Shown here piece by piece: positions 56,046-58,112 of a DNA stretch of 64,000 nucleotides (position 1 is the first letter of the stretch; every line of letters begins with the position of its first letter). Position numbers and translations under genes: made by a program. Source of the DNA: Singulisphaera sp. GP187 (GTDB taxonomy: Bacteria; Planctomycetota; Phycisphaerae; Phycisphaerales; SM1A02). Where the stretch lies: contig CAMBXO010000008.1 of NCBI GenBank assembly GCA_945871915.1, forward strand, positions 1 to 64,000. The letters run 5' to 3'. Below the pieces are notes generated by a model. The model did not search any database, was not told the DNA's origin, and saw only the letters and a list, made by a program, of their open reading frames with translations.

Positions 56046-56198
56046 TTAGATTCCTTGTCGCCTCCCACGTGTTGTTCCGCCCTGCACCGTAGCCAGCACG
56101 GCCAACGATCCAGAAGCAGAAACGAGGTTCGTGACCATCGATGAGGCACCGAGCGTGCAGCATCCTTCGATGGCGTCTTTCAATTCGAGATTTGTCAT
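56046..56198 (-). CDS. 50-residue orphan peptide
   Basis: ATG at 56198, GAGGGA 7 nt upstream, TAA at 56046. The peptide begins MTNLELKDAIEGCCTLGASS and continues with a small-residue, hydrophobic segment (VSASGSLAVLATVQGG) and a basic end (RGRRQGI). No family recognised. The acidic start, CC pair and Ala/Ser/Gly/Val-rich core would suit a secreted or modified peptide or a short membrane peptide, but no modification or transport genes are near. It lies downstream of proS beyond the large inverted repeat. Could be a chance frame. Confidence 0.4.
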   Translation of the reverse strand: MTNLELKDAIEGCCTLGASSMVTNLVSASGSLAVLATVQGGTTRGRRQGI

Positions 56199-56449
56199 GT
56201 CCTTTTCCCTCAACCTCAATGCAGTTCAGTGTGTGTATATCCGCGTTGAATGCAAGAACTGTTGCTTGGAATTTGGTGGATCTGGGTTGTAACTAGGGAC
56301 GGGGGTAGGGTCGGTAACTAGGGACGGGGGTCGTTATTAGGCACCGCTCTGCGGTGCCTAATAACGACCCCCGTCCCTAGTTACCGACCCTACCCCCGTC
56401 CCTAGTTACCGACCCGACCCGCGTCCCTGGTTATCACAACCATCCAGAT
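56199..56449. other. Non-coding gap between proS and the orphan peptide
   Basis: Apart from the 121-bp inverted repeat and its extra half-unit, 56199-56288 and 56437-56449 show nothing recognisable. The large hairpin could act as a bidirectional transcription barrier for the convergent genes, but there is no T-run on either side. Confidence 0.6.
56289..56409. repeat. 59-bp perfect inverted repeat with 3-nt loop
   Basis: Two 59-base arms (56289-56347 and 56351-56409) are exact reverse complements around TCT. Each arm is built of two copies of GGTAACTAGGGACGGGGGT plus a tip GTTATTAGGCACCGC. A third, imperfect unit (GTTACCGACCCGACCCGCG) follows at 56405-56436. It occupies the gap between convergent ubiX and proS; as RNA it would form a very stable stem, and as DNA a cruciform. 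No transposase is attached. Confidence 0.95.
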
Positions 56450-58015
56450 TCAATACGCCTTCGCAAACACCACGCGCCGCTTCGCAGGCTTTCCGCTCAA
56501 GATGCATTGTCCCGGATCGTCTTGACCGTCGAGCGGAATGCATCGAACAGTCACCCCAAGTTCGTCTTTCAATTTGGACTCCTCCATCGGATCCATTGCA
56601 AATCGGCTGAGGGCAAAGCCGCCATGAATCTCCGTCGGCACGCCTTCGCTCTCAGGTTTCAATGCCGTAAAGAACGCTCGAAATTCCTTTGGATCATCAA
56701 TGGAACGGGTGTTCGCCACTTCATGCGCCTTGGCCTTAGCAAACATGCTTTGCTGCATCTCGTCAAGCAGTGACACCACGCCCGCCACCAGCGCGTCCGC
56801 ACTCATAGCTGTTCGTTCCTTCACGCCACGATCTCGCCGCGAAACACTCACAACACCTTGCTCTAAATCGCGTGGACCAATCTCGACTCGAAGCGGCGCA
56901 CCCTTCTTTACCCAACTCCACATTTTGTCTCCACCACGCAAGTCTCGCCGGTCCACTTCAACTTCTAAAGTTCCACCCACATACGACACCTCGCGAAGAC
57001 GAGCAGCCAACTTCTCGCACGCCTCCATGACAACCGCCGCACACTCTGGTTTGGGAAGAATCGGCAGAATCACCACATGCGTGGGAGCCAAACGAGGAGG
57101 CACGACCATGCCATCATCATCGGCGTGTGTCATGAGCAGTGCCCCGATCAGTCGTGTGCTCACCCCCCAACTCGTCGTCCAGGCATGCTGCAAAATTCCA
57201 GCCTGATCCAAAAATTTGATCTCGCTCGCCTTGGCAAAGTTCTGCCCAAGAAAATGGCTCGTGCCGCCCTGCAGCGCCTTGCGATCCTGCATCATGGCTT
57301 CGATCGAAAGAGTTTCCACCGCTCCCGGAAATCGCTCGCCCTCGGTCTTTCGCCCCTTCACAACTGGCATCGCCATCCAATTCTCCGCAAAATCCGCGTA
57401 GACATCCAACATCTTGCGGGTCTCCTCCTGCGCTTCTGCCTCGGTTGCGTGGGCGGTATGCCCTTCTTGCCACAAGAATTCTGTGGTTCGAAGAAACAAT
57501 CGCGTCCGCATTTCCCAGCGAACCACATTGGCCCATTGATTGATAAGCAGTGGAAGATCGCGGTAACTCTGCACCCACTTTGCAAAGCTTGCACCAATGA
57601 TTGTTTCAGATGTCGGCCGCACAACAAGCGGCTCGTCCAATTCACCAGCCGGTATCAATCCTGGCTTGCCATCCCGCTTAATGCCAGCTTGCAACCGGTG
57701 ATGCGTTACCACGGCGCACTCTTTGGCAAACCCCTCAACATGCTGCGCTTCTTTTTCCAGAAACGAGAGCGGAATGAACAGTGGGAAGTACGCGTTCTTA
57801 TGACCCGTCTGCTTAAACATTCGATCAAGCACTCGCTGCATGTTTTCCCAAAGGGAATAACCCCACGGCTTGATCACCATGCATCCTCGCACCGGACTGT
57901 TTTCCGCAAGATCCGCCGCTCGCACCACCTGCTGATACCACTCCGCATAATTCTGGGCGCGCGTGGGTTGGATAGCGGTCTGCGGTGCGTTCTGTGATTT
58001 GGTGGGTTGACTCAT
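56450..58015 (-). CDS. proS: Prolyl-tRNA synthetase (eukaryote/archaeal-like class)
   Basis: 521 residues. RPTSETIIGASFAKW (motif 2 region), RTTEFLWQEGHTAHATEAEA, and LQGGTSHFLGQNFAKA belong to the archaeal/eukaryote-type ProS without the bacterial editing insert; the C-terminal anticodon domain holds VSVSRRDRG and ends in a KxY motif (FAKAY) typical of this class. ATG at 58015 has GGA 9 nt upstream; the open frame runs to 58060. First enzyme downstream of the CHAD gene on the minus strand (97 bp). Confidence 0.95.
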   Translation of the reverse strand: MSQPTKSQNAPQTAIQPTRAQNYAEWYQQVVRAADLAENSPVRGCMVIKPWGYSLWENMQRVLDRMFKQTGHKNAYFPLFIPLSFLEKEAQHVEGFAKECAVVTHHRLQAGIKRDGKPGLIPAGELDEPLVVRPTSETIIGASFAKWVQSYRDLPLLINQWANVVRWEMRTRLFLRTTEFLWQEGHTAHATEAEAQEETRKMLDVYADFAENWMAMPVVKGRKTEGERFPGAVETLSIEAMMQDRKALQGGTSHFLGQNFAKASEIKFLDQAGILQHAWTTSWGVSTRLIGALLMTHADDDGMVVPPRLAPTHVVILPILPKPECAAVVMEACEKLAARLREVSYVGGTLEVEVDRRDLRGGDKMWSWVKKGAPLRVEIGPRDLEQGVVSVSRRDRGVKERTAMSADALVAGVVSLLDEMQQSMFAKAKAHEVANTRSIDDPKEFRAFFTALKPESEGVPTEIHGGFALSRFAMDPMEESKLKDELGVTVRCIPLDGQDDPGQCILSGKPAKRRVVFAKAY

Positions 58016-58112
58016 AAGCGATCCGTGGTGGATGGCGAAGGTAGCACGCCCGATCCGCACAATGCTTCCCCGTCACACTCTGATGGCATACACCTTACGA
58101 ACTCCCCGCTGG

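Follow-up and report, generated by a model that had tools for sequence, protein, structure and literature searches.

A palindromic repeat at the 3' end of proS in a Singulisphaera sp. GP187 genome, probably a REPIN of a RAYT system lost from or undetected in that genome

The palindrome behind proS and its setting

The window, the whole stretch of 64,000 nucleotides that was analysed, belongs to contig 8 (CAMBXO010000008.1) of a Singulisphaera sp. GP187 assembly (GCA_945871915.1; 2.24 Mb in 20 contigs, 98% complete; the window genome, G000). Directly behind the stop codon of proS lies a perfect inverted repeat with fully complementary arms of 59 bp each around a 3-nt loop (Table 1), in agreement with a preliminary description of this DNA; with mismatches allowed, the inverted repeat reaches 56278-56347/56351-56420 (70 nt, 93%). 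That description also held that each arm contains two units and a tip and that a third, diverged unit follows, and all of these were found: each arm carries two copies of GTAACTAGGGACGGGGGT with a 25-bp period, plus the tip, and the third unit is probably an outer unit of greater age that lacks the tip. The pattern GTAACYAGGGACG, with at most two mismatches, has 6 matches against 1.2 expected, a count given by 0 of 100 shuffles. Folded as single-stranded DNA, the element yields -86.3 kcal/mol (z = -17.8 relative to shuffles). Nested outer units without tips, with a 23- or 25-bp period, are present in three copies of the window genome (L034, L032 and the window copy at 56289-56436) and were not seen among the doublets read in relatives.

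The element had been placed between convergent genes. Convergence of proS (minus strand) and ubiX (plus strand) was borne out, but a 50-aa minus-strand ORF with a conserved leader lies between the element and ubiX, and the element is therefore more likely flanked by two co-directional genes. The ORF (MTNLELKDAIEGCCTLGASSMVTNLVSASGSLAVLATVQGGTTRGRRQGI; window 56046-56198, minus strand) is preceded by the leader GAGGTTGAGG-AAAAGGA, which congeners keep before the gene that follows proS; its protein is unlike the congeners' protein at the corresponding place. A terminator-like hairpin (56018-55979) follows the ORF.

Table 1. Features of the element in the window, and doublet sites in the window genome (C, contig).
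Feature	Position	Strand
Imperfect outward continuation of the inverted repeat	56278-56288	+
Left arm: two tandem units (56289-56306, 56314-56331) and tip GTTATTAGGCACCGC	56289-56347	+
Loop TCT (3 nt)	56348-56350	
Right arm, perfect reverse complement of the left arm	56351-56409	-
Third, diverged unit GATAACCAGGGACGCGGGT (ends approximate)	56417-56435	-
proS, 3' end toward the element	56450-58060	-
Doublet site	C1:31 kb	
Doublet site	C3 start with C17	
Doublet site	C4:46 kb	
Doublet site	C4 end with C10 start	
Doublet site	C8:56 kb	
Doublet site	C9:68 kb	
Doublet site	C9:71 kb	
Doublet site	C9 end with C13 end	

A dispersed family of doublets at gene ends

A genome-wide search for the unit, proposed in the preliminary description, recovered dispersed copies that mostly touch stop codons. 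There are 16 exact matches to GTAACTAGGGACG in the window genome and none in the reversed control; the unit consensus is RTAACYAGGGACGGGGGTYGTTATNNGNCACNGC, and the copies amount to about eight inverted doublet sites and 11 single units. A search with two mismatches was swamped by chance (65 matches against 162 in the reversed control), and therefore only matches with 0-1 mismatches were used. In several single copies the TAA within the unit seems to serve as the stop codon of the gene. The monomer was also considered as a strong palindrome in its own right; its pairing is good in one single copy and weak in others. The uniqueness that had been named beforehand as fatal to a REP-like reading is excluded by these copies and by those in relatives. 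Five contig ends of the window genome fall within copies of the repeat, and the relatives' orthologous sites indicate that C4 end and C10 start, as well as C9 end and C13 end, are putative neighbours. One contig, C17 (L038, L132; 21,926 bp), has flanks mirrored around its exact middle, centred on a repeat copy; it is probably an artefact of fold-back during assembly, and its real neighbour would be C3 start. REPIN-type palindromes thus break and mirror contigs in metagenome assemblies.

The family is present in the window genome and its five nearest congeners, and was detected neither in the other ten congeners nor elsewhere among the 181 family genomes searched. With one mismatch allowed, the core GGGACGGGSSTMSNTAT has 29, 35, 48, 32 and 20 matches in G000, G008, G012, G003 and G010, respectively, and none in the other 11 genus members, one of which, G006, carries 24 matches to the variant AGGGTCGGAGGTTGTTAT (sought in G006, G009 and G013 only). 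A stricter 21-mer pattern matches 5 of the 181 family genomes, and an exact 17-mer gave six single matches to unrelated bacteria in a wider genome contig collection, probably by chance. A tree of ProS and M24 fragments unites G000, G012, G006, G003 and G010 in one clade (support 1.00); G008, which has neither fragment, is unplaced, and its flanks are ~95% identical to those of G012. Three sequence types are distributed by genome: type A (GGGGGTCGTTAT) in G000, G008 and G012, type B (GGGCCTACATAT), in which GGGGGT of the unit has become GGGCCT, in G003 and G010, and type C in G006. No genome mixes types A and B among the matches listed.

The doublets are concentrated at gene ends. Across five species, 41 of 54 have, on one or both sides, the stop codon of a long frame (150 codons or more) no further than 16 bp away, and 23 have one on each side; for random positions of the same loci, the proportion within 16 bp of such stops is 6%. 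This random-position test is the controlled version of the comparison; gene orientation taken from the longest ORFs is rough and was not relied on.

The two halves of a doublet tend to match each other rather than those of other copies. Tip complementarity within and between doublets is 0.98 and 0.72 in G000, 0.90 and 0.60 in G003, and 0.93 and 0.55 in G010, and the observed value was reached by 5, 1 and 0 of 2000 permutations, respectively. The effect is weak in G008 (0.63 and 0.56) and G012 (0.67 and 0.55), where the halves are often of different subtypes. The active maintenance of perfect arms that had been suggested therefore fits the first three genomes, in which the two arms of a copy agree with each other far more closely than with the arms of other copies, but fits G008 and G012 poorly; perfect arms are the rule in some of these species but not in the rest.

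Shared sites, exchanged content and the transposase

Six of the eight doublet sites of the window genome have doublets or single units at orthologous gene ends in other species, and orthologous sites are shared between type A and type B species as well. At the orthologous proS site a palindrome is found in four relatives: a perfect type B copy in G003 and G010, type A in G012 and a tail-to-tail type C arrangement in G006. Of eight sites shared by the close relatives G008 and G012, five have changed in step with their flanks; at the other three the doublet has been exchanged (tip identity 0.34, 0.58 and 0.70) between flanks that are 90-98% identical. Within the window genome, near-identical arms are shared by sites that are old by site comparison (C4 end with C9 end; C4:46 kb with C9:71 kb). 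These swaps between conserved flanks, together with the near-identical arms at old sites, point to a putative replacement of doublets in place, which is the least expected part of our findings. One site (G008 L207) was checked for a clean empty counterpart, and none was seen: G006 has a stub there and the site in G000 is diverged. We tentatively suggest, at somewhat less than even confidence, that the REPINs described here act as a fixed set of landing positions at gene ends, at which a new type overwrites the old one genome-wide; the positions would be inherited vertically while their content turns over. The replacement may reflect RAYT activity, gene conversion or recurrent insertion at preferred sites, which the present comparisons do not tell apart. 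Swapped contents at shared sites offer a direct way to test how one REP type comes to supplant another.

A REP-associated transposase had been predicted elsewhere in the genome; none was found in the window genome, either with the Pfam Y1_Tnp profile or as a relative of the RAYT of G003. Among the fifteen congeners, a RAYT is intact in G003 (223 aa) and broken by two stop codons in G006. The G003 protein has a Y1 HUH transposase domain of RAYT type: it scores 36.9 bits against Pfam Y1_Tnp (cut-off 23; 4.4e-9) and 56.8 bits against NCBIfam REP_Tyr_transpos (2.2e-15), under the cut-off of 80, it matches E. coli TnpArep 4er8 over residues 11-140 (3.6e-5), and NHWH and YVERNPVKAG motifs are visible. 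Its gene is flanked by inverted copies of GGGACGGGCCTACATAT, which is the unit in the rest of the G003 genome. The broken RAYT adjoins the same M24 gene, its ends being matched to the unit by eye only; both RAYTs lie at the 5' side of this peptidase gene. M24 and its RAYT neighbour form a segment whose orientation to the lpxA-side gene (L121, L122, L123) is reversed between G003 and G006, possibly by recombination between inverted units.

In the window genome the place of the G003 RAYT, between M24 and EttA, is taken by a lone unit. In G010, which is close to G003, ~30 bp separate EttA and M24, and both RAYT and unit are absent. Given an intact RAYT in G003, a decayed one in G006, a lone unit in the window genome and neither in G010, loss is therefore the simplest reading for the window genome, where a RAYT might still lie within the 2% missing from the assembly.

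Interpretation and known REP systems

Taken together, these results make it very probable that the window palindrome is a REPIN from a RAYT-mobilised population whose transposase has been lost from, or is undetected in, the window genome. The REP/BIME-like reading put forward earlier is upheld by the dispersed family and by a relative's RAYT flanked by the family's own unit. As in REPINs, two inverted REP units enclose a short variable spacer and can form a hairpin, and multiple copies are dispersed and mainly extragenic, at low copy number. A cognate RAYT between inverted family units is seen in G003 only; no RAYT was found in the window genome, so the RAYT link runs through relatives. Several points weigh against the REPIN reading: a single intact RAYT was found in the six carrier genomes, of which several are fragmented, copies are few (20-50 core matches per genome), the unit is without the GTAG tag typical of gamma-proteobacterial REPs, and the doublet halves of G008 and G012 are often unlike.

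On this reading the palindrome is a pair of REP-like units in inverted order, a non-autonomous element that spreads when a RAYT, an HUH single-strand nuclease, acts on its hairpin in single-stranded DNA. We infer that a RAYT moved the copies described here and that the window genome has since lost it, in which case the copies would now be fossils or be kept only as 3'-end hairpins. A new sequence type may also have been introduced at sites already present, through RAYT activity on REP targets or through gene conversion; the differing sequence at shared sites would then be accounted for. More speculatively, three copies carry 23-25-bp tandem units in their arms that probably descend from an outer doublet, into the tip of which a younger doublet was inserted; slippage could alternatively have produced them.

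Replication errors of the fold-back or template-switch kind could have turned single units into perfect doublets locally, without a transposase. In G003 and G010 the tips beyond NGGAC are unrelated between copies and complementary within a copy, as expected of such events, and mirrored contigs like C17 indicate that such sequence easily folds back in assembly. This origin is nevertheless unlikely; it leaves both the dispersal and the unit-flanked RAYT unexplained, and the same compensatory spacer changes have already been described in REPINs by Bertels and Rainey (PMC3116915). Fold-back or template switching may instead be how the arms stay equal. That doublets as such are products of assembly is scarcely credible, even though C17 mirrors its flanks, as do C370 and C271 of G003, near contig ends; for the window copy the idea is refuted by flanks that show no mirroring past the element and by the palindrome at the same site in four other assemblies.

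Selection by the host offers another account, in which the doublet serves as a terminator or as a stabiliser of mRNA 3' ends, a change in a host factor shifts all copies, and mobility is past or irrelevant. The abutted stop codons (41 of 54 doublets), sites conserved across species while the sequence type differs genome-wide, and arms that remain complementary are all consistent with it. However, a T-run follows the hairpin in just 4 of 108 flanks and no terminator-like call was made at the element, so that an intrinsic terminator finds no support in the sequence; moreover, there are a few dozen sites per genome, none was detected behind the same proS gene in ten congeners, and the RAYT of G003 is flanked by the repeat's own unit. 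We consider this account improbable. The doublets may still play a part at mRNA 3' ends. The tandem units of the window copy do carry G-tracts, which had prompted the suggestion of quadruplexes, but a canonical motif (four G-tracts of at least 3, loops of 1-7) occurs in 0 of 54 doublet cores, which mostly have two G-tracts per strand, and type B has changed GGGGGT to GGGCCT; quadruplexes are thus unsupported. We rate a quadruplex or replication-barrier element as very improbable.

On the REPIN reading, the family is a further RAYT/REPIN system, and one clade allows genomes to be compared in which the transposase is present, decayed or apparently lost. GTAG-tagged REPs are the target of E. coli TnpAREP. 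That enzyme (PDB 4er8) is related to the G003 RAYT over residues 11-140, and its DNA target differs. The GTAG- and CGTC-tagged REP superfamilies (PMC3733652) resemble the present family in being small palindromes, mostly head-to-head dimers, downstream of genes, and GACG/CGTC is present in types A and B. The family fits neither superfamily: in place of an unpaired 5' GTAG beside the stem, the cores of types A and C have no GTAG and that of type B has it internally, and in place of an unpaired terminal CGTC with an 8-9 bp stem and a 4-5 nt loop, CGTC lies inside the unit (and is changed in G006), with a different stem and loop. CGTC-tagged repeats, furthermore, have no dedicated transposase (PMC3733652).

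The REP orthogroups of the orthoswitch model (PMC3686654) are alike in having different REP types in different species at RAYTs beside the same neighbour, here M24, and in RAYT loss and pseudogenes. In that model old REPs remain in place and decay, and its authors call the molecular mechanism of type replacement a matter for speculation only; here, in contrast, the new type stands on old sites, with no mixed types among the matches listed. Compared with the REPINs of Pseudomonas (PMC3116915), the present family is shorter (~50-60 bp from core to core), has few copies and no 5' GTAG-type tag, touches stop codons, and has no RAYT found in the window genome. It shares with them the inverted REP doublet with conserved ends, variable spacer and hairpin, the compensatory changes in the arms, the occurrence of single units beside doublets, and a RAYT flanked by its own units.
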